Below, piece by piece: positions 28,255-40,035 of a DNA stretch of 42,322 nucleotides. Source of the DNA: Betaproteobacteria bacterium. GTDB taxonomy: Bacteria > Pseudomonadota > Gammaproteobacteria > Burkholderiales > Usitatibacteraceae. The translations under genes were made by a program, and so were the position numbers. The notes under the pieces are model-generated. The model was not told the origin of the DNA and did no database searches. It was given only the letters and a program-made list of their open reading frames with translations. The DNA lies in NCBI GenBank assembly GCA_025362705.1, contig JANYFH010000111.1:1-42322 (forward strand), in the 5' to 3' direction. How positions within the stretch are numbered: the first letter of the stretch is position 1; each line of letters starts with the position of its first letter.

Positions 28255-28905
28255 TCAAATCCAGTATGTGGATCCGGTCATCACGCGCGAGAACATGGAC
28301 ATCGCCGTCTTAATCGGTCTTGGTAGTGGCATTGCTCCGAGTTGCGAACCAGATTGACCGTGGCGAATCTCGTCTTCGCGCATTGTTTCAATAATTACGC
28401 GACTACGCGTGTCGGTTGGAGAAATGCGTCCGAGATGGTTATGCAGATGTGTTTCTACCTGTCGCTCGGTCTCGACCAGGAATCCCATACTCCATTTGTC
28501 CCCCAATAATCCAGACACAACGCCAACGCTGAAGGCACCCGCATAAAACAAAGGGAGCAATCGACTCTTGTCACCACCCATTTCTCCGAGGCGTGACTCG
28601 CACCAGGCAAGGTGGTCGTGCTCCTCCTTCGCTGCCTGAACAAGCAGCGATCTCGTCTGATCTGCCATTGCGACCAGCGCCTGGCCTTGGTATAGCGCCT
28701 GCGCACAGACCTCTCCACAATGGTTCACGCGCATGAGCCGGATAGACTCTGCAATCGCCGCCTTATCGGCTACCGGATCAGCAGCATCGGGATTAGCAAT
28801 GGATGGCAACGGCTGGGGTCGCCCGGAACGTGCTTTTGCAAACATAGTTCTCATGCCGGTATCCAGCTCACAAATCAGGCGGTCTCGCAAATTCATTTTT
28901 TGCAT
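28255..28905 (-). CDS. coq7: Ubiquinone biosynthesis hydroxylase Coq7 (di-iron)
   Basis: A 216-residue di-iron carboxylate hydroxylase that adds the C6 hydroxyl to demethoxyubiquinone. Iron-ligand motifs are visible in order: NHCGEVCAQALYQGQAL, AKEEHDHLAW, LVETERQVETHLHNHL and REDEIRHGQSG. It replaces E. coli UbiF in many alpha- and betaproteobacteria. The ATG at 28905 lies directly after the T-tract of the porin terminator, and a second in-frame ATG (28896) lies three codons inside; neither has a Shine-Dalgarno sequence. Expression therefore must come from read-through or from a promoter within the porin gene end. It converges on the OsmC-like gene. Confidence 0.94.
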   Translation of the reverse strand: MQKMNLRDRLICELDTGMRTMFAKARSGRPQPLPSIANPDAADPVADKAAIAESIRLMRVNHCGEVCAQALYQGQALVAMADQTRSLLVQAAKEEHDHLAWCESRLGEMGGDKSRLLPLFYAGAFSVGVVSGLLGDKWSMGFLVETERQVETHLHNHLGRISPTDTRSRVIIETMREDEIRHGQSGSQLGAMPLPRPIKTAMSMFSRVMTGSTYWI

Positions 28906-28961: not shown

Positions 28962-30059
28962 TTAGAACGTGTGGCGCAGACCTACACCCATACCCTTTGG
29001 ATCAGCATCAACTACAATGCCCGGCAATCCAGATGCATTCAAGCCAACGTTTGCCGCCACATTGTTCTTGAGCGAAGCATAGCGTGCCATGAAGGTCGTT
29101 CTCTTGGAGAAGTTGTAGTTATATCCAACGGTCGAAAGTTTGCTTTCCGGCTGAATAACACCGGCCGTCGTCAAGCCACCGTCCTTTAACCGCCCAACCG
29201 TGGCCATGAACTGATGCATGCCGACGGTATAGGTAAGTGAGGCTTGATACGCTTTCTTGTCCGTGCGGTCGGTCGACCTGATTTTCTGCGTCAACGCACC
29301 GATTTTGAACGGGCCGAAGACAAAAGTCGCTGCGAGATTTTGCCCCTTTTCGGTCACACCAGCAGTAACCGCCGCTCCACGCGTGTCTTTATGCTTCTCG
29401 TTAGCGTAATTGATTCTGAACGGGCCAGCAGCGTAGTCGATGCTTGCGCTGACGGAGTTCGGATTGGTCGTCGCGGTTTTACCTTCATCTGCGCCGTACA
29501 TCGCACGAAGTGAAAAACCATTGATGTTCGGCGACCAGTATTGAACCATGTTGACTTCACGGCGATTAAAATCGCTCGTATTGATCACTGCCAACTGATT
29601 GCCGATGGTGTTCTGCTCATAAGGATCGACGAAAATCGCGGAGAGTTTGAACGGGCTGTCCCAACGTCCGATGATGACGCTACCGAAGCCACCTTGCAGA
29701 CCAACACCGCTATTACGTCCGGAAACAGGGCTGTTGTTGATATTGATAGGGGTTGCGGCTGGAGCGGGGTTCAATGCGCTCACAGACGTGACGTTTTCTT
29801 CCGGAGTGAAACCCATTTCCAGTTGGAAGAACGCTTTCAGTCCACCGCCGACATCTTCAGTACCGCGAATACCGATCAAGGATGACTCGTTTACCACCGT
29901 TGTCCTTCTTGACACCGATGTCGCACCACCTTCGGCTTTCACGCTGTTGACCATTTCCCAGGCGCGACCATAGAGGGTCACGGGGTTAGCCGATTGCGCC
30001 ATGACGGCCGGGGCGAATGTTGCGCCAGCGACAGCGAGTGCGATCAATTTTTTGTTCAT
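28962..30059 (-). CDS. General porin (betaproteobacterial type)
   Basis: A 365-residue outer-membrane porin. The signal peptide MNKKLIALAVAGATFAPAVM is cleaved after AMA or thereabouts, the mature protein starting QSANPVTLYGRAW, and the C terminus GVGLRHTF ends in phenylalanine as required for BAM-mediated insertion. Internal motifs SSLIGIRGTEDVGGGLKAFFQLE and GFGSVIIGRWDSP are those of the trimeric 16-stranded general porins of Neisseria and Burkholderia. The open frame extends to 30188, but the ATG at 30059 has AAGGAGA seven bases upstream and starts the signal peptide, so it is preferred. It carries its own terminator and, judging from the 290-bp gap behind trpC, its own promoter. Confidence 0.94.
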   Translation of the reverse strand: MNKKLIALAVAGATFAPAVMAQSANPVTLYGRAWEMVNSVKAEGGATSVSRRTTVVNESSLIGIRGTEDVGGGLKAFFQLEMGFTPEENVTSVSALNPAPAATPININNSPVSGRNSGVGLQGGFGSVIIGRWDSPFKLSAIFVDPYEQNTIGNQLAVINTSDFNRREVNMVQYWSPNINGFSLRAMYGADEGKTATTNPNSVSASIDYAAGPFRINYANEKHKDTRGAAVTAGVTEKGQNLAATFVFGPFKIGALTQKIRSTDRTDKKAYQASLTYTVGMHQFMATVGRLKDGGLTTAGVIQPESKLSTVGYNYNFSKRTTFMARYASLKNNVAANVGLNASGLPGIVVDADPKGMGVGLRHTF

Positions 30060-30283
30060 CAAAAATCTCCTTAGGGTTAAGTTGAGGCTTTTTAATTCTT
30101 CACAACACAAAAACCTCTTGGGGTAGAGCATGCCACCTGTACGTTGCGCCAAACCGGCTAACACCCACGTAGCAACTTCTCCCACCATCGTAATGCCAAA
30201 ATCTTTTGAGAAGCCGCCGTCATATTGCCAAATTTAGCGCACTTGCTCAAGTGAACACTGTGAAATTAGCCACAGCAAAGGCA

Positions 30284-30349: not shown

Positions 30350-31171
30350 TTATCGCAGTGTGTCTGCAAAGAGCATCATGAGGGCAGCACCCGGATCGGA
30401 TGATTCCATCAACGCACCTCCAACAAGGTAAGTGCCTACTCCGCAACCGTACATCTTCTTCACGATGGCAATATCGGAAATGCCGCTTTCAGTCACCAAA
30501 ATTCTATCCGGAGGAACAAGCTCCTTTAGCGTTAGCGTAGTTTCAATATTTGTCTTGAATTGCTTCAGATCGCGATTATTAATGCCAATCAATGGCGTCT
30601 TGAGCATGAGTGCTTGTTGCAGTTCATCTGCTTGATGAGACTCCGCAAGCACAGCCAGGCCAAGTCCTGCAGCAAGTGCCTCCCATTCCACAAACGCTTC
30701 AACGGGCACCGCCCCCATGATAAACAGAACCGCATCAGCGCCCATCGCCCGGGCTTCGACGATTTGATACGGATCCACAATAAAGTCTTTCCGAAGCACC
30801 GGCAAACGGCAAGCCGCACGCGCTGCGACCAAGTCTTCCATTGATCCTTGAAAGTACTCACTGTCGGTGAGTACTGAAAGGCAGGCAGCACCGTGCGCCT
30901 CATAGCTTTGCGCAAATCTGGCCGGCTCAAACGTTGCGCCGACTCCCGCAAGGCCTGCGCGGAAAACCCCGGCGCTGGGACTGGCTTTCTTGATTTCTGC
31001 AATCACCGCCGCCTTACCTGCCGCGCGCTTGGCGCGAATCGCGCCAACAAAATCGCGCGTTGGTTGCATATCCCTGACGAGTGCTTCTATTTCCGCCAGT
31101 GGCCGCCTCAGCTTCGCCTCGACAACTTCGCGACGCTTGGTCGCAAGGATTTTTTTCAGGATATCCGACAT
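30350..31171 (-). CDS. trpC: Indole-3-glycerol phosphate synthase
   Basis: A 273-residue single-domain indole-glycerol-phosphate synthase (not fused to TrpF). TIM-barrel motifs: IAEIKKASPSAGVFR (about 57-71), VLRKDFIVDPYQI (about 124-136), LIGINNRDLKQF and VTESGIS. It converts carboxyphenylaminodeoxyribulose 5-phosphate to indole-3-glycerol phosphate. It lies 35 bp past trpD and ends the trpEGDC unit. GGAG lies about ten bases from the ATG. Confidence 0.96.
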   Translation of the reverse strand: MSDILKKILATKRREVVEAKLRRPLAEIEALVRDMQPTRDFVGAIRAKRAAGKAAVIAEIKKASPSAGVFRAGLAGVGATFEPARFAQSYEAHGAACLSVLTDSEYFQGSMEDLVAARAACRLPVLRKDFIVDPYQIVEARAMGADAVLFIMGAVPVEAFVEWEALAAGLGLAVLAESHQADELQQALMLKTPLIGINNRDLKQFKTNIETTLTLKELVPPDRILVTESGISDIAIVKKMYGCGVGTYLVGGALMESSDPGAALMMLFADTLR

Positions 31172-31206: not shown

Positions 31207-32229
31207 CTAAATTGCCGACGAGAATTTGACGAGCGCGTCAAGCTTCGCACGTGCTTTTCCGCTCTCGATCATTTCGCGCGCCTTGGTGACACCACCCCAC
31301 AAATCATTTGCCAAACCCGCAACATAGATCGCCGCCCCGGCATTGAGCATCACGATGTCCTTTGCCGGGCCGGACTTATTGTCCAGCACACCCAGCACCA
31401 TTTCTTTCGACGACTCTTTGTCCTTCGCCTTGATCGCCTCAATCGGAGCGATATCGAGCCCGAATTGCTTGGGTTCAATTTTGAACTCAGTGACAAAACC
31501 GTGTTTTAGTTCGGCCACCAGAGTGGGCCCTGAAATCGTGATCTCGTCGAGTCCATCTTCTCCATGTACTACCATGACATGTTTCGAACCCAGCTCTTTC
31601 AACACGCGCGCCTGAATACCGACCAGATCGCTGTGAAATACGCCCATCAACTGGTTAGGGGCACCGGCTGGATTCGTCAACGGGCCAAGAATATTGAGAA
31701 TCGTGCGCATACCCAGTTCTTTCCTAATCGGCGCAGCGTATTTCATCGCGGGGTGATGAATTGGCGCGAACATGAAACCCAATCCAACCTGTTTGATCGA
31801 CTCTGCAACCTGCGCGGGCGACAGATTCACATTCACGCCCAGTACTTCCAATACGTCGGCGCTACCTGATTGCGAGGACACCGAGCGACCCCCGTGTTTC
31901 GCAACGCGTGCGCCAGCAGCAGCAGCGACGAACGCTGTGGCAGTTGAAATGTTAAACGTATGCGATTTATCACCGCCTGTGCCACAGGTATCCACCAGAT
32001 TCGGCAAGTCACCAACATCAACTTTGGTGGAGAATTCGCGCATCACTTTCGCGGCAGCCGCAATTTCGGACACCGTCTCGGTCTTCACATGCAGGCCCAT
32101 GAGAATTGCGGAAAGTTGTACCGGTGTGACCTTGCCTTCCATGACTTGACGGAACAGATCGACCATTTCATCGAAGAATATCTCGCGTTTATCGGAAAGA
32201 CGGCTGATGGCTTCCTGTGCAGTAAACAT
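31207..32229 (-). CDS. trpD: Anthranilate phosphoribosyltransferase
   Basis: A 340-residue enzyme joining PRPP to anthranilate. Motifs: [19 protein letters not shown] (PRPP-binding loop, about 78-96), [19 protein letters not shown], the anthranilate contact region around [10 protein letters not shown], and HGEDGLDEI. The frame can be opened two codons earlier by a TTG at 32235 overlapping the trpG stop, but the ATG at 32229 is preferred because AAGG stands seven bases upstream of it. The gap to trpG is then two bases, so translation is likely coupled. No N-terminal TrpG fusion. Confidence 0.95.
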
Positions 32230-32231
32230 AT

Positions 32232-32801
32232 TCAAACCTTCATCCTTAGAAAATTCTCCAATAACGCATGACCATGTTCGGTCATGATCGATTCAGGATG
32301 GAACTGCACGCCCTCCACAGCGAGCGTCTTGTGCCGCAATCCCATGATCTCGCCGTCGTCGGTCCACGCAGTCACTTCAAGACAATCAGGACAAGTTTCG
32401 CGCTCGATCACCAGCGAGTGGTAACGAGTGATTCGGTACGGTGATGGCAGGTCCGAGAATACACCTGCGCCGGTGTGGGTCATCTGCGAGGTTTTCCCAT
32501 GCATCAGCGTTTTCGCATGCACCACTCTGCCGCCAAACGCCTGCCCGATGCTTTGGTGTCCCAGGCACACACCCAGAATCGGGATTTTCCCCGCAAATTT
32601 TTCAACAGTGGGTACGGAAATCCCCGCCTCCGTCGGTGAACAAGGCCCCGGTGAAATCACGATTCGCGCAGGTGCGAGTTTTTCGATATCCAGCAGCGAA
32701 ATTTCATCGTTTCGCTTGACCAGCACATCTTCGCCCAGTTCGCCAAAATACTGAACCAGGTTGAACGTAAAGCTATCGTAGTTATCGATCATGAGTAACA
32801 T
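32232..32801 (-). CDS. trpG: Anthranilate synthase component II (glutamine amidotransferase)
   Basis: A 189-residue class I glutamine amidotransferase supplying ammonia to TrpE. The catalytic triad is in [15 protein letters not shown] (Cys at about residue 79) and [11 protein letters not shown]. It begins [24 protein letters not shown], the usual start; the frame runs 88 codons further upstream into trpE but that part is unrelated. GAGGAG lies seven to eight bases before the ATG. It starts ten bases after the trpE stop. It may also serve folate synthesis as PabA. Confidence 0.96.
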
Positions 32802-32811
32802 TTTTCTCTCC

Positions 32812-34314
32812 TCACGATGGATTGGTGTCGATGCCGAGCGACACCATTTCGGCCGCGCGCAGCAGGGCACGTGCCTTGTTTTCGGTTTCCTGCCATTCGA
32901 GTTCTGGCACCGAATCGGCAACGATGCCCGCTGCCGCCTGCACGTAAAGCGTGCCGTCTTTGACAACACCGGTACGAATCGCAATCGCCAAATCCATGTT
33001 GCCGTTAAATCCAAGATACCCCGCTGCACCCGCATAAACGCCACGTTTGCTGGGTTCGAGTTCATCGATGATTTCCATCGCGCGCACTTTCGGCGTGCCC
33101 GCTACCGTACCGGCCGGAAAAGTCGCCCGCAGCAAATCGATCGGGCCAACGTCATCGCGAATTTCCGCGTCAACATTCGACACCAGATGCATCACATGCG
33201 AGTAACGCTCCACCACCATTTGTTCAGTCACTTTCACGCTGCCGGTTTTTGCGATGCGACCCAGGTCATTGCGACCAAGATCAATCAGCATCAAATGTTC
33301 CGCCAGTTCCTTGGGATCATTTTTCAATTCAATTTCGAGGGCGAGGTCGCGCTCAGTGGTATCGCCACGTTTGCGCGTGCCGGCAATCGGACGTACCGTC
33401 ACTTTGCTGCCTTCCTGGCGCACCAGAATTTCCGGCGAGGCGCCGACGATATGGAAGTCACCCATGTCGAAATAAAACATGTAGGGCGAAGGATTGATTG
33501 AGCGCAATGCCCGATACAGGTTGATCGGCGGCGCATCGAAGGATTGCGAAATCCGCTGCGAAATTTGCACTTGCATGATGTCGCCATCGACGATGTACTG
33601 CTTGCATTTCGCAACCGCCTTCAGAAATGCTTCCTTACCGATTTCGGATACCGGCTCTTGCGCCACAGCACCAGGCACGTACACGGGAAGCGGCGCGTGT
33701 TCGCGCAAACCCAGTCGCAGCGTGGTCAAACGTCGCTGCGCATTTACGAAAGCATTCTCGCGGGCGGGATCGGCGTATACGATCAAATGCAGCTTGCCGG
33801 AAAGATTGTCCACCACCGCAAGTTCGTCCGACAGCATCAATAAAATATCGGGTGTGCCGATCACGTCTTTTTTCAGGGCGTGCTCATCGAGTTCGAGCTT
33901 GTGCTCGACGTAGCGCACCGTGTCATAGCCAAAATAGCCGGCCAGCCCGCCGGCGAATCGGAGCGCGCCCTCAATCGGCGCTGCGTTGAAGCGCTTGCGA
34001 TATTTTTCAACAAACACCAGTGGGTCCTTGACGAAAACATGCTCCAGCGTCTCGGTCTGTCCGCCCGTTTTTGCCCGCACAATCGCGCATTCCTTGCCTT
34101 TTACCCGCAGCCATTCGCGCGCAGGCAAGCCGATGATTGAATAGCGCCCGAATCGCTCGCCGCCAATGACGGATTCGAGCAGATACGAAAACGGTTTATT
34201 GGCCAGCTTGAGATAGATCGACAGCGGCGTATCCAGGTCCGCGAAGGTCTCAAGCGTGACGGGGATTCGGTTGTAGCCCTGCGCGGCGAGTGCCGCGAAT
34301 TGAGTTTCGTTCAT
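32812..34314 (-). CDS. trpE: Anthranilate synthase component I
   Basis: A 500-residue chorismate-using enzyme. The N-terminal half has the feedback site element [17 protein letters not shown], with the LLES-S type motif for Trp binding (about residues 38-55). The C-terminal chorismate-binding domain has [30 protein letters not shown] and [21 protein letters not shown], with [14 protein letters not shown] near the end. It makes anthranilate from chorismate with TrpG. The ribosome binding site GGAAAA is weak and lies within the 3' strand of the long-range inverted repeat described under trpL, which suggests translational control by tryptophan supply. Confidence 0.97.
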
Positions 34315-34317
34315 GAT

Positions 34318-34413
34318 TTTCCAGCAAAGGTTGTATTGGACAGCGGGACAACACGGCAGCTAATTACTTAGCGCCAGTTATGCCATCGCCACGTCCAAAC
34401 CTGTTTGCTGAAA
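34318..34413 (-). promoter_or_regulatory. Long-range inverted repeat: candidate trp translational attenuator
   Basis: The segment 34393-34413, inside the leader peptide frame, and the segment 34318-34341, just before trpE, are complementary in order over TTTC, AGCAAA, GGTT and TGGAC (19 pairs), with bulges of 1, 2 and 4 bases. The helix would cover the trpE ribosome binding site. Between them lies the hairpin GGCGCTAA-GTAA-TTAGC-T-GCC (34355-34375), which includes the leader stop codon. No hairpin followed by a T-run was found, so a transcription terminator is not evident. Confidence 0.6.
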
Positions 34414-34418
34414 GTCAT
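34368..34418 (-). CDS. trpL: Tryptophan operon leader peptide, 16 residues with four Trp
   Basis: Between gph and trpE, an ATG at 34418 opens a 16-codon frame: MTFSKQVWTWRWHNWR, stop TAA at 34370-34368. Four of sixteen residues are tryptophan, at positions 8, 10, 12 and 15, as expected for a leader peptide that measures charged tRNA-Trp by ribosome stalling. It sits 54 bp ahead of trpE. There is no clear Shine-Dalgarno sequence; it starts 18 bp past the gph stop, so translation could be coupled to gph or start near the 5' end of a short transcript (a weak TTGTTA-n17-TAACTT lies at 34462-34434). Its 5' half is complementary to the trpE ribosome binding region. Confidence 0.8.
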   Translation of the reverse strand: MTFSKQVWTWRWHNWR

Positions 34419-34436
34419 GTTGAATTGGGGAAGAAG

Positions 34437-35276
34437 TTAATGCGGAGGCATCACTTTAACAAATTTTAGCGCCGAAGGAATATCGTCGATAAATGCGTCG
34501 CAGTCCAGCCCGCGAAGTTCCTGGCCTTCGTTGTAGCCGTAGGGAACGATAAACACGGGGCAACCTGCCGCGCGCGCCGCTTCGGCGTCGTTCACCGAAT
34601 CGCCGATCAGCAGCAACTCGGCGGTGTTGCAGTCAAAAAACTTCGCCGCGTGTTGGAGCGGCAGCGGATGTGGTTTCTTTTCGGGCAGGGAGTCACCGGA
34701 AAGAACGAGTTCGACATAACCGCTGAGGCCCGATTTTTCCAGTAGCGGCAAGGTGAATTTTTCAGCTTTGTTAGTGACACATCCGAGCCGGAATCCTTTG
34801 TCCCGCAACGCATTCAGGCCATCGATCACACCGGGAAAAGGAATCGAGGTGTCGCCAAAACACTTGTCATACTGTCGCTCAAAATTCGCAACAGCGACTT
34901 TCAGCGCAGTGGGGCCAACTTCGCCGACGGCATCTTTGAGCGTCTTCGCAACAAGATTCGCAATACCTTTGCCGACATAAGTTTTAATCAGCGCAGGATC
35001 CAGCGGCACAAAGCCGAGCGCCGCACGCATCATGTTCGCCGCAGTCGCGATGTCGCCCACGGTATCCAGCAATGTGCCATCGAGATCCAACAGCACCGCT
35101 CTGAGCGGAACGGGAAACGCAAATTTGGGCTTCGCGCGCAGCTTGGGTTTCTTGACAACGACATCCCCGTCCGCAGGCACATCGGCCTGAGAGCCAATAT
35201 CCACGCCGCTCTCCATGGCAATGCCGCCGGGAGCCGCGCCAGTGCTGGGGTTTGGCGCATCCAACTCAACGGTCAT
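34437..35276 (-). CDS. gph: Phosphoglycolate phosphatase
   Basis: A 279-residue HAD-superfamily phosphatase. Motif [16 protein letters not shown] is at residues about 62-76, the TNKAEKF motif at about 175, and [15 protein letters not shown] at about 230. It removes 2-phosphoglycolate, for example from DNA repair. The first 57 residues, rich in Ala, Gly, Asp and Lys, have no counterpart in typical Gph proteins (about 220-230 residues). The ATG chosen overlaps the rpe stop (ATGA) and is the only one with that coupling; an ATG at residue 21 is an alternative. The order rpe-gph-trpE is common in beta- and gammaproteobacteria. Confidence 0.9.
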
Positions 35277-36019: not shown

Positions 36020-36403
36020 ATGAATGAGACAAAAAAATACGCAATCGACGTCACCGCGCAGGCGTTTTATCTTCCCGAACAGTCCGATGAAGAGAACGAC
36101 CAGTATGTTTTTGCCTACGCGATTCGTATTTTCAATACCGGCCAGGTATCAGCAAAAGTCGTTAGCCGCCACTGGGTCATCACCGACTCGGACAATCAGG
36201 TACAGGAAGTGCGCGGCATGGGTGTAGTCGGCGAACAGCCGACGATCAAACCCGGCTCATCGTATGAGTACACATCAGGTTCGTCATTGAGCACGATGGT
36301 CGGCACCATGCGCGGCACCTACCAGATGCTTGCGGAAGACGGTACCAGGTTCGACGCAGTGATACCGGAGTTCACACTTTCGGTGCCACGCGTGTTGCAC
36401 TAA
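36020..36403 (+). CDS. apaG: ApaG protein
   Basis: A 127-residue protein, normal for ApaG. Typical elements are VFAYAIRIFNTGQVSAKVVSRHWVITDSDN and GVVGEQPTIKPGSSYEYTSGSSLSTMVGTMRGTYQM. It has a fibronectin type III-like fold. It has been linked to cobalt and magnesium handling and to diadenosine tetraphosphate turnover, but its biochemical function is unsettled. Its stop overlaps, on the opposite strand, the end of the 45-residue membrane protein gene. Confidence 0.95.
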   Translation: MNETKKYAIDVTAQAFYLPEQSDEENDQYVFAYAIRIFNTGQVSAKVVSRHWVITDSDNQVQEVRGMGVVGEQPTIKPGSSYEYTSGSSLSTMVGTMRGTYQMLAEDGTRFDAVIPEFTLSVPRVLH

Positions 36404-36537
36404 AGCTTGCTTTTTTCGTCGGCATCCTTGCCGCGAACTTCAGGTGGTTTCGGTTTCTTCTTCTTCGGAAACGTCCACCAGACAATAAACACCGCCAGCG
36501 CGAACGCTAGAAATACCTGCGCAAATACCCAGACCAT
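36400..36537 (-). CDS. Small single-pass membrane protein, 45 residues, unknown
   Basis: An ATG at 36537 with GGAG eight bases upstream opens a 45-codon frame ending TAG. The peptide has one membrane helix (VWVFAQVFLAFALAVFIVWW, residues 2-21), then a strongly basic stretch (PKKKKPKPPEVRGKD), giving an N-out, C-in orientation by the positive-inside rule. Its last codons overlap the apaG stop by four bases in convergent orientation. No family is recognised. The helix, charge pattern and ribosome binding site all support a real gene. Confidence 0.7.
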   Translation of the reverse strand: MVWVFAQVFLAFALAVFIVWWTFPKKKKPKPPEVRGKDADEKSKL

Positions 36538-36626
36538 CTATTTCTCCAATATTCAACGCTGACTAAAATGCCAAAGCGATTCGGCCAAACGGCACGCGTC
36601 AACGCGATTGATATACTCGCGGCAAC

Positions 36627-38012
36627 ATGAGACCGACGCAAAACTACATGATTGGCCTGATTCGTTCCGCGCACGTGCAATTTCGTATTTTGCACTTTTG
36701 CATTTTGCACTTTCGTATTTTGCATTCTCGCATTTCATTCGCCCTCGCGGGCACTGCCATTCTTGCGAGCTGTGCGAGTGCGCCTCAATACATCCCACCG
36801 CCCGCACCCAAATGTGCGGCCTGCGAGGTCTGTAACGTCTGCACGGCACCAGTGACGGCTGCGCCGGCCATCGCGATACTTGAATCGGTTGCGCCAATAC
36901 CAACGCCACCGGAACCCGTTCGTGGTCGACTCGAACGCGCGCCGTGGGAAGGCCTGCCCAGCTTCAATGCCGATGACCCCACCGATGCGCTCGCCGCGTT
37001 TTTGCAGGGCTGCACGACGCTCGCAGCAAAACCAGAATGGAGCGCGGCGTGTGCTGCGGGCTCTGCCGTCCCACCAAAAGCACGCCCGGAAATAATTCGC
37101 CGATACTTTCGTGAAAATTTTGACCCCTTCAAAGTCGTCAACGCGGACGAATCCGATACTGGATTGGTGACCGGTTACTACGAACCGCTGCTGCACGGCT
37201 CACGCGTGCGTACCGAAACATTCAAATATCCGATCTACGGACAGCCGCAGGATCTGGTGTCGGTCGATTTAAGCGACGTTTATCCGGATCTTAAATTCAA
37301 ACGATTGCGCGGCCGCATCGTCGGCAACAAACTGGTGCCGTATTTTGATCGCAGCGAAATTGAATCCAGCGGCGCGCCACTCAAGGGTCTCGAGCTTGCA
37401 TGGGTGGAAGACGCAGTGGAATTATTTTTCCTGCAGATTCAGGGTTCCGGACAGATTCTGTTGCCCGATGGCACCCGCATGCGCGTAGGCTATGCCGATC
37501 AAAACGGCCATCCGTTTCGATCCCTCGGCGGTGCCTTGATTCGCCGCAGTCAAATCAGGGCCGAGCATGCGTCCATGCAAGGTATCAAGGAATGGGCGCG
37601 TCGCAACCCATCGAAAATCCAGGCCTTCATGAACATCAATCCCAGCTATGTTTTTTTCAAGGAATTACCGGGCGAACAAAGTGGTCCGATCGGCACACTG
37701 GGCGTGCCATTGACCGGCGAGCGAAGCATCGCGGTGGATCAGCGTGTGGTGCCGTTGGGTGTTCCGGTGTTTCTGTCGACAACTTTCCCCAATACGAAAA
37801 CGGCGCTGAACCGTTTGATGGTTGCGCAGGATACGGGCGGCGCAATTAACGGCGCGGTGCGTGCCGATTTCTACTGGGGATTTGGCGACGAAGCCGGTGC
37901 AGTGGCGGGCAAGATGAAACAGCAGGGGCGCATGTGGGTGTTGCTGCCGAAGGGTTATGACCCCAATACGGTCATGCTAACGCAACCGCCTGCGCCGCCC
38001 AAGACACCGTAG
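36627..38012 (+). CDS. mltA: Membrane-bound lytic murein transglycosylase A
   Basis: A 461-residue lipoprotein with the MltA domain (GYYEPLLHGS near residue 190) and C-terminal 3D domain (LMVAQDTGGAINGAVRADFYWG, about 397-418, containing the catalytic aspartate of the AQD motif). It cleaves peptidoglycan glycan strands with formation of anhydro-muramyl ends, from the outer membrane. The lipobox LASC places the lipidated cysteine at about residue 49. The stretch before it is unusually long and contains a 5-residue repeat encoded by 15-bp units (36681-36740). After the lipobox comes a CxxCxxCxxC cluster (residues about 63-72). The ATG at 36627 has no good ribosome binding site; an ATG at 36648 is possible. 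Confidence 0.92.
   Translation: MRPTQNYMIGLIRSAHVQFRILHFCILHFRILHSRISFALAGTAILASCASAPQYIPPPAPKCAACEVCNVCTAPVTAAPAIAILESVAPIPTPPEPVRGRLERAPWEGLPSFNADDPTDALAAFLQGCTTLAAKPEWSAACAAGSAVPPKARPEIIRRYFRENFDPFKVVNADESDTGLVTGYYEPLLHGSRVRTETFKYPIYGQPQDLVSVDLSDVYPDLKFKRLRGRIVGNKLVPYFDRSEIESSGAPLKGLELAWVEDAVELFFLQIQGSGQILLPDGTRMRVGYADQNGHPFRSLGGALIRRSQIRAEHASMQGIKEWARRNPSKIQAFMNINPSYVFFKELPGEQSGPIGTLGVPLTGERSIAVDQRVVPLGVPVFLSTTFPNTKTALNRLMVAQDTGGAINGAVRADFYWGFGDEAGAVAGKMKQQGRMWVLLPKGYDPNTVMLTQPPAPPKTP
36681..36740 (+). repeat. 15-bp tandem repeat in the mltA signal region
   Basis: Four units of 15 bp: TTTCGTATTTTGCAC, then TTTTGCATTTTGCAC, then TTTCGTATTTTGCAT, then a diverged TCTCGCATTTCATTC. They encode FRILH, FCILH, FRILH and SRISF in frame with mltA. 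Confidence 0.85.
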
Positions 38013-38020
38013 CGCAATAG

Positions 38021-38035
38021 TCGGGGTTGCCCCGA
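38021..38035. other. Hairpin between convergent mltA and dsbC
   Basis: TCGGGG and CCCCGA form a 6-bp stem with loop TTG, with ATAG and CTAT as possible outer pairs. It fills the 25-bp gap between the two stop codons. There is no T-run on either strand, so it is at best a weak terminator. Confidence 0.35.
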
Positions 38036-38037
38036 AA

Positions 38038-38766
38038 CTATCGTTTCGCTTCAACCGTAGGCATAACCTTCGCCGCCACCAGCTTGGCTTCCATACGGTC
38101 TTTCGCCATCGCGCCGGAGATGCGCTCGCCGTCTTCAAAAAACGTCGTCGGCGTGCCGGTAATATTCAATTTGTGGCCCAATGCGAGCACCTTATCGACA
38201 GGCGTGTCGCAGGTTGCCTTGGCGGTCGGCGCTTTCTCGCGCAACATCTGATCCTGCCAGGCTTTCAGGCGATCCGTCGAGCACCATATCGATTTGGATT
38301 TTTCCATAGAATCCTGCGCAAGAATTGGATAGGTAAAAATGTAGGCTGTGATGTTGTCAGTCGAATTCACATCCTGTTCAAAGCGTTTGCAGTAACCACA
38401 ATTGGGATCTTCAAAAATCGCCATGCGGCGGCTACCGTTGCCACGAACCAGCTTGATCGCCTGATCCAGCGGCAGATCGTTGAAATTGATGGCAGTGAGC
38501 TTTTGCAGGCGCGCTTCGCTTACGTTGGCCCGTGTTTGTGCATCGACCAATGTACCCAGCAACAGGAAGGTTACTTTTTCATCGGTATAAATAATCTCGC
38601 CACCGGCAAAAATTTCAAACAGATTGCCGTAGGGCGTTTTGGTGATGCGCTCGGCCTTCACTTCAGGGTATTTTTTTGCCAACTCCGCCTTGACCGTGTC
38701 GTTTGCAAAAGCAGAAGCGGCAAAGGCGGTTAGCACGATTAGTGCAAGATTTTTGATGAGTTTCAC
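38038..38766 (-). CDS. dsbC: Thiol:disulfide interchange protein DsbC
   Basis: A 242-residue periplasmic disulfide isomerase. The signal peptide VKLIKNLALIVLTAFAASAF is followed by AND. An N-terminal dimerisation domain (about 20-80) precedes the thioredoxin domain, with the active site DPNCGYCKRF (about 127-136), a second cysteine pair (SIWCSTD and KATCDTP) and the cis-proline loop GTPTTFF. The frame runs 30 codons further upstream to 38856, but the GTG at 38766 has AGGA eight bases before it and starts a proper signal peptide, so it is preferred. It lies 105 bp past the UbiI-like gene, and a 12-bp tandem duplication (GATTTGCCACAT, 38833-38856) lies in between. Confidence 0.93.
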   Translation of the reverse strand: MKLIKNLALIVLTAFAASAFANDTVKAELAKKYPEVKAERITKTPYGNLFEIFAGGEIIYTDEKVTFLLLGTLVDAQTRANVSEARLQKLTAINFNDLPLDQAIKLVRGNGSRRMAIFEDPNCGYCKRFEQDVNSTDNITAYIFTYPILAQDSMEKSKSIWCSTDRLKAWQDQMLREKAPTAKATCDTPVDKVLALGHKLNITGTPTTFFEDGERISGAMAKDRMEAKLVAAKVMPTVEAKR

Positions 38767-38871
38767 GTGAGTTTTCCTGAAGTAAATGCTGATTCGATGG
38801 GACTTTGAACAGTGGTAGAAGTGTTGGTTCCCGATTTGCCACATGATTTGCCACATATACCAGCTGGAATT

Positions 38872-40035
38872 CTAGCCGATTGCGTAGTCGATTAACGCCG
38901 CCTTGGCGTGAGGCAGCCGATTAAGCAACGTCAAACCCTCGTTGCGTATCCATCCAGCAGCTTTGGCATCACTGAGATATAGCGCCCGTAGTTTATCAGT
39001 GACCTCACTTAACCCAAGCGTCGCCTCACACCGTGCGCGCTCATATTTGCGCAACACAGCCACATCGCCTGGAGCGGAAAACTTGGACCGATTGCGTAAT
39101 ATCTCAACCAATGTACGCGCATCGGCAAAGCCCAGATTCACGCCCTGCCCTGCGAGCGGGTGGATCGCATGTGCAGCGTCACCCATCAACGCGAGACCGG
39201 CTTCAACCCAGTGGCGGGCAAGCACGCGTGCAAGCGGAAAGCGGGCGATGGGCGAGGCCAGCGTCAGCTTGCCCAGCGTGTTGTGTCCTGCGGCTTCGAC
39301 TGCTATACAAAACTCATTGTCGGGGATTTCTTTCAACGCCGCCGATTTCGTTCGCAAAACTGACCAGACGATTGATATCTGGTTCTGCGGAAGCGGCAAA
39401 TACGCCAGCACAGATTCATTCGTGAACCATTGCCGCGCAACATCGCCATGCGCAAATTCGCCATTGAAATTAGCGACGATGCCGTCGCTCTCATAATCTT
39501 TAGTTTCAGTAGCGATACCGGCCCAATCGCGAATTTGCGAGCGGCTGCCATCCGCGCCAACGAGTAAATCTGCCTGTAAAACGCTTCCGTCGGCCATTTC
39601 CAATTCGCGACGATCTCCATTCGTACGCATCGCTTTCAGCACCGCACCGCGCACCACGCGAATGCCCTCGACGCGGGAAACTGCCTGCTCCAGCGCAAAC
39701 ATCAATGCGGTATGTTCAACGATGGTCGCAATCGGCTGGCCCTGCGCCAAATCGAGATGGCTTTGGCGGTTCGCATCGTCACCCCACACTTGCATCGCAC
39801 GGACATGTGCCGCGCGTGCGGGATCGGGCGAGGCGCCAAGCCCACGAAGAAAATCGAGTGACGCCGGTGACAGCGCAAAAACGCGGTGATCGAACATCGA
39901 GGGCGATGTAATTGGTGCAGCGGGCGTTGTGCTGCGCTCAACAACGGTGACTTCCACGTTTGCCAGCCGTGAGGCCGCAAGTGCAAATGCCAAACCCACC
40001 GGGCCACCGCCGACAACGACTAAACTCGCGTTCAT
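38872..40035 (-). CDS. UbiI/UbiF-type FAD-dependent ubiquinone hydroxylase
   Basis: A 387-residue flavoprotein monooxygenase of the UbiH/COQ6 family. It has the FAD dinucleotide motif VVVGGGPVGLAFALAASRL at the N terminus, the DG motif LLVGADGSRSQIRDWAG near residue 165 and GDAAHAIHPLAGQGVNLGFADARTL near residue 285. It hydroxylates the ubiquinone ring. Because Coq7 (C6) and a clear UbiH (C1) are also in the window, the C5 hydroxylation done by UbiI in E. coli is the likely role, but regiospecificity cannot be read from sequence and UbiL or UbiF types are alternatives. The ATG overlaps the ubiH stop by four bases. Confidence 0.88.
   Translation of the reverse strand: MNASLVVVGGGPVGLAFALAASRLANVEVTVVERSTTPAAPITSPSMFDHRVFALSPASLDFLRGLGASPDPARAAHVRAMQVWGDDANRQSHLDLAQGQPIATIVEHTALMFALEQAVSRVEGIRVVRGAVLKAMRTNGDRRELEMADGSVLQADLLVGADGSRSQIRDWAGIATETKDYESDGIVANFNGEFAHGDVARQWFTNESVLAYLPLPQNQISIVWSVLRTKSAALKEIPDNEFCIAVEAAGHNTLGKLTLASPIARFPLARVLARHWVEAGLALMGDAAHAIHPLAGQGVNLGFADARTLVEILRNRSKFSAPGDVAVLRKYERARCEATLGLSEVTDKLRALYLSDAKAAGWIRNEGLTLLNRLPHAKAALIDYAIG

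Follow-up and report, generated by a model that had tools for sequence, protein, structure and literature searches.

A candidate tryptophan attenuator acting on trpE translation, with a leader start that pairs with the trpE start, in a Betaproteobacteria bacterium

Classical trp attenuators control transcription termination; attenuation of the E. coli trp operon follows this classical transcriptional mechanism, and the transcription attenuator of the enteric trp operon (trpL) carries the Rfam family name Trp_leader. In the translational attenuators of antibiotic-resistance genes (ermC, cat), a ribosome stalled on the leader frees a masked downstream Shine-Dalgarno sequence. Amino-acid-rich leaders are also represented by the polycysteine leaderless upstream open reading frames (uORFs). 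Attenuation that overlaps the ribosome-binding site is mentioned in section 4 of PMC4833913 as having been outlined before (citing its reference 7); no betaproteobacterial trp operon is among the examples of that section, and what they share with the locus described here is the general idea of attenuation at the ribosome-binding site. A stretch of 42,322 nucleotides (the window) from a betaproteobacterial genome was analysed, and we consider it likely that the gap between gph and trpE in this window carries a ribosome-mediated tryptophan attenuator acting on the translation of trpE.

The window, contig 168, belongs to a fragmented genome of 2.75 Mb, about 85% complete. Among named relatives, those closest to it are betaproteobacterial MAGs and 'Betaproteobacteria bacterium UKL13-2', a complete genome. 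The minus strand carries a run of genes in the order rpe, gph, trpE, trpG, trpD and trpC. The gph gene, encoding phosphoglycolate phosphatase, occupies positions 34437–35276 (minus strand), and its stop codon, which ends at 34437, is separated from the downstream leader ATG by 18 nt. The putatively controlled gene, trpE (32812–34314, minus strand; anthranilate synthase component I, TIGR00564), starts at 34314 and is followed in the same direction by trpG (32232–33065, with an open frame that overlaps the trpE end and a homologous part that begins at residue 89), trpD (31207–32235) and trpC (30350–31171). The neighbours encoded in 28255–28905, 28962–30188 and 36020–40035 are ordinary (COQ7, a PorB-like porin, ApaG, MltA, a DsbC-like protein and an FAD-binding oxygenase). 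No promoter was found at the locus by consensus search. The hidden leader of 16 codons with four Trp codons, which the initial annotation had placed between gph and trpE, was confirmed at 34368–34418 (minus strand): its ATG lies at 34418, its stop codon at 34370–34368, and it encodes MTFSKQVWTWRWHNWR followed by the stop, with Trp at codons 8, 10, 12 and 15.

Conservation of these Trp codons in relatives, a check named in that annotation, was assessed in trpE upstream regions from the order Burkholderiales. The 173 loci collected were reduced to 158 distinct ones after the removal of 6 unusable and 9 duplicate loci; searching 399 genomes with a degenerate pattern proved much too permissive, and its matches were set aside. 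A Trp-dense leader, defined as a frame of up to 45 codons before trpE with at least three Trp in nine codons, was present in 96 of the 158 loci, as against 0.5% of 790 shuffles. A further 28 loci had a two-Trp leader, and in the remaining 34 no leader candidate was present. Within the window's family most leaders end in W-R-W-x-x-W-R, with L005 and L010 as exceptions, and the Trp codons around this end have almost invariant bases. Relatives thus keep the Trp codons. For eight loci (L030, L039, L065, L118, L120, L132, L142 and L145) the start of the leader was assigned manually; that of L132 was 3 nt off in the pairing, masked-folding, gph-junction, Shine-Dalgarno and terminator tests, and right in the queued-ribosome test. 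The leader candidates of L119 and L163, which overlap gph deeply and may be false, were retained in the counts. In the close relative L007 the first Trp codon is lost and the last leader residue is changed while the helix described below is kept, a possible case of sensor decay. In Undibacterium (L088, L097, L101, L106 and L110) the leader lies about 307 nt before trpE, and the pairing between the two starts is weak in L097, L106 and L110.

In the minimum free energy (MFE) fold of the window, the whole gph-trpE gap forms a single long hairpin, in which the leader start and the early codons are paired with the trpE ribosome-binding region and AUG. The segment 34290–34440 had an MFE of -51 kcal/mol, compared with -33 ± 3.7 for shuffles (z -4.9; none of 200 as good). 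At the base of the hairpin, CAUGA of the leader start pairs with UCAUG of the trpE start, and UUUCAGCAA (codons 2–5) pairs with UUGCUGGAA, the Shine-Dalgarno-like region of trpE; these segments make up the base of the 5' arm (34405–34419, minus strand; MFE pairing and covariation) and of the 3' arm (34312–34327; MFE pairing and Shine-Dalgarno analysis). Above them, AGGUU and UGGAC of codons 6–9, which include W8 (34393–34402), are opposed in the MFE pairing to GUCCA and AACCU (34328–34341). Further up, later leader codons pair with the gap, and a tip hairpin (34355–34375) encloses the leader stop codon. The complementarity between 34393–34413 and 34318–34341, reported in the initial annotation, is therefore present as part of a longer hairpin that includes the CAUGA-UCAUG pairing. 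The duplex between the two starts of the window reached -20.1, whereas 500 shuffles of the leader arm gave -7.4 ± 2.3 and none was as good. Folding together with covariation (see below) predicts that leader RNA masks the trpE ribosome-binding site. The Trp-codon stretch at 34371–34391 (TGGCGATGGC..CTGGCG) is able, in the window and in family relatives, to form a small hairpin of its own, which may act in pausing or may simply follow from the codons. Rfam gave no match at gathering level across the window, with chance matches alone in 34250–34480 (E up to 10), and no T-box RNA upstream of the operon was matched by Rfam in the window.

The pairing tests covered 63 short-gap loci (leader ATG 75 to 155 nt before trpE) and 54 long-gap loci with a usable leader candidate (at least two Trp). 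RNAalifold, applied to MAFFT alignments made for the entire family and for the genus, missed the long helix, reported no covariation and returned the local hairpin of the Trp-codon stretch alone; it recovered the long helix in ten sequences of two other genera. The miss is explained by the divergence of the arms and by differing loop lengths, and hence leader arms were compared with cognate and non-cognate trpE arms. In the 63 short-gap loci, pairing with the cognate arm reached -34.6, versus -23.8 with the trpE arms of other loci, and narrow arms gave -20.1 versus -12.2 (p about 5e-5). Two controls showed no clear effect: the leader arm against the inside of trpE (-11.0 versus -10.5, p 0.07) and an upstream segment against the trpE start (p 0.39). 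The preference for the cognate arm was seen again in the genus alone (10 loci, p 0.0008), in the remaining genera of the family (11 loci) and in a set of 21 loci with a single representative of each other family; some pairing between the starts was also kept in the long-gap relatives (-13.8 versus -11.3; 48 of the 54 loci used). A covariance model built from other genera only placed 34309–34426 first in the window genome (20 bits, E 0.066). Column by column, both sides had changed in 3 of 14 pairs of the genus alignment, and pairing fell from 82% to 39–53% on sliding of the strands; taken alone this signal is modest, since 17 of 500 shuffles reached its count of compensating cells. The covariation expected in the gap of relatives was accordingly found in that the arms stay complementary while their sequences change, but it is modest in the columns of the genus alignment. 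L114 has an almost perfect stem, about 27 pairs long and made of a CACAGAG-like repeat, that connects the opening codons of its leader with the Shine-Dalgarno region of trpE; it looks recently formed.

The divergence of arms that nevertheless stay complementary is unlike the behaviour of a protein-binding site, and we regard it as very improbable that the inverted repeat is a DNA element (a repressor site) or a chance palindrome instead of an RNA switch. In the fixed helices G.U pairs outnumbered A.C by 27 to 2, although those helices had been chosen by RNA folding; a symmetric search that allowed both alike gave 32 G.U versus 22 A.C, an unclear strand bias that leaves some room for a DNA element. 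A repressor site is further disfavoured by the absence of TrpR from the window's family: it was found in none of 28 family genomes, in a survey with a positive E. coli control; the window's own genome is about 85% complete. In the part of PMC5343134 that deals with TrpR, this repressor is described as conserved in gammaproteobacteria but missing from other classes.

No terminator-like site was visible between the leader and trpE on the minus strand of the window. An energy-based scan for a hairpin plus U-tract, which supersedes an earlier perfect-stem scan (11 of 54 long-gap and 11 of 63 short-gap loci), was positive in 4 of 22 loci of the window's family, all of them weak, in 2 of the other 41 short-gap loci, and in 31 of 35 loci with the longer Oxalobacteraceae-type leader. 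The lack of a U-tract terminator, as initially annotated, was thus borne out in the window and in most of its family. The Oxalobacteraceae-type relatives, which have the same kind of leader, lend weight to the reading that the leader governs termination before trpE after all, through an intrinsic terminator too weak to be recognised or through Rho acting on the untranslated gap; classical trp attenuators act in this way, and a masked trpE could undergo Rho polarity. Transcription attenuation of this sort is nonetheless unlikely at this locus: the window is without a U-tract terminator, and what is conserved and covaries is base pairing between the leader and the very start of trpE, a feature that a terminator could do without. 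In three Oxalobacteraceae-type loci (L063, L084 and L161), the Lys codons of the leader, CAAAAAAC, exactly match the reverse complement of the U-tract stretch that precedes trpE, GTTTTTTG; since the two starts pair in these loci too, terminator and mask may be combined there.

The effect of ribosome position was computed by masked folding, in which the ribosome footprint was blocked and the cost of opening trpE from -16 to +6 was calculated. L011, nearly identical to L009, was excluded from the family here (21 loci), being grouped with the remaining loci instead, and was included in the terminator scan and the queued-ribosome test (22 loci). The mean opening cost in the 21 family loci was 17.2 without a ribosome, 8.5 with the first Trp codon in the A site, 13.0 with the last, and 16.4 with the stop codon, whereas shuffled sequences gave about 9 in all ribosome states. 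For the window the cost was 16.6 without a ribosome, 5.3 at the first Trp codon and 16.6 at the stop; it remained at or below 5.3 up to W10 and rose to 10.9 with the A site at codon 11. The W8 value was stable over four footprint sizes, and that of W10 varied with size between 4.3 and 11.8. Given these costs, a ribosome stalled at W8 or W10 of the window would free trpE and completion of the leader would mask it. The initial annotation had proposed that stalling at codons 8–15 opens trpE; this range was too wide, W8 and W10 fitting the proposal and W12 and W15 giving partial opening only. In the E. coli control (trpL) a terminator was found, the helix was absent and the opening cost was 2.2 in every ribosome state.

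The predicted switch, open with the ribosome at the sensing codons and closed with the ribosome at the stop, was therefore obtained in silico for the window and its family, with little switching in L005 and L009, and was weak outside the family, where one stalled ribosome was usually insufficient. There, a single ribosome gave 11.4 at the first Trp codon versus 12.8 at the stop, with a shift of at least 3 kcal/mol in 11 of 41 loci; when a second ribosome was queued ten codons behind, the cost was 7.4 and 31 of the 41 loci shifted. A queue of ribosomes may hence be what opens trpE outside the window's family.

The sequence upstream of the leader matched the anti-Shine-Dalgarno poorly (-1.0, worse than the -2.7 of random windows from the same loci; trpE reached -4.3). 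In 43 of the 51 short-gap loci with a gph match, the distance between the gph stop and the leader ATG was -4 to +33 nt, and nine of these junctions overlap by four bases. The missing Shine-Dalgarno sequence and the short or overlapping junctions favour reinitiation by ribosomes leaving gph, as had been suggested at the outset, and the leader is probably fed in this way. Because the leader start itself lies inside the helix, a closed message would also hamper initiation on the leader, unless ribosomes from gph open it. In many species the leader ATG, which has no Shine-Dalgarno sequence, comes just after the gph stop or overlaps it, as in coupled genes, and the hairpin might accordingly be a constitutive brake or a translational-coupling device that sets the trpE:gph ratio, the Trp codons being no sensor. 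We hold this to be quite improbable, as Trp codons are dense in most relatives, far above shuffles, and the first Trp codons of the family are placed where a ribosome still opens the helix.

The tryptophan attenuator that we favour would work as follows. Ribosomes leaving gph would reinitiate at the leader, or otherwise start on it, without a Shine-Dalgarno sequence, and would unfold the hairpin at its base as well. With plentiful charged tRNA-Trp, they would reach the leader stop and release codons 1 to about 10, which would then pair with the trpE ribosome-binding site and AUG and leave trpE untranslated; the untranslated trp operon may additionally suffer Rho polarity. With scarce charged tRNA-Trp, the ribosome would stall at W8 or W10 and cover the 5' arm, and the trpE start would stay open. 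The comparative and energetic evidence supports this overall interpretation of the locus, already advanced in the initial annotation, as terminator-free, translational trp attenuation.

A wider scheme for the whole order is offered tentatively, as possible rather than probable: trp control in Burkholderiales may rest on gph ribosomes that reinitiate on a leader without a Shine-Dalgarno sequence, the start of which masks trpE, with a translational output in most families, an added terminator in Oxalobacteraceae, and unmasking by a ribosome queue where the Trp codons come late. If true, the mechanism would explain tryptophan control in betaproteobacteria, the window's family being without TrpR. 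It would also give an example from nature of a leader possibly supplied by reinitiating ribosomes. In textbooks the trp operon stands for transcription attenuation, and the same sensor appears here to be coupled to a different output; with relatives that do have a terminator, it can therefore be asked how a regulatory RNA switches its output while keeping its sensor.

As regards novelty, no title or abstract start in the literature searched, which leaves mostly outside its coverage the subscription papers, described a translational trp attenuator in betaproteobacteria; in the passage concerned, PMC5343134 applies 'translational attenuation' to the E. coli trp operon. The proposed combination, a sensor that is that of trp attenuation and an output that is that of translational attenuation, is absent from Rfam and from the searched literature for betaproteobacteria, and its novelty is provisional because many subscription papers lie outside that coverage. 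The locus resembles the enteric trp attenuator (trpL) in its short leader with clustered Trp codons before trpE and in ribosome stalling as the presumed sensor. It differs in that the window lacks a U-tract terminator and its leader start pairs with the trpE start, the reverse of the situation in E. coli. Of the features of a classical trp attenuator, the window thus shows the clustered Trp codons, with neither an intrinsic terminator nor a match to the RNA family. As far as the available description of the polycysteine leaderless uORFs goes, these share an amino-acid-rich leader and no evident terminator with the present system, and differ in amino acid, phylum and start mode and in having no helix between the two starts. 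With ermC and cat the window system would share a ribosome stalled on the leader that unmasks a downstream Shine-Dalgarno sequence. Here, in contrast, the signal would be an amino acid shortage sensed at Trp codons and the target a biosynthetic operon. The mask also differs, as it is formed by the coding start of the leader itself instead of a separate segment after the leader.
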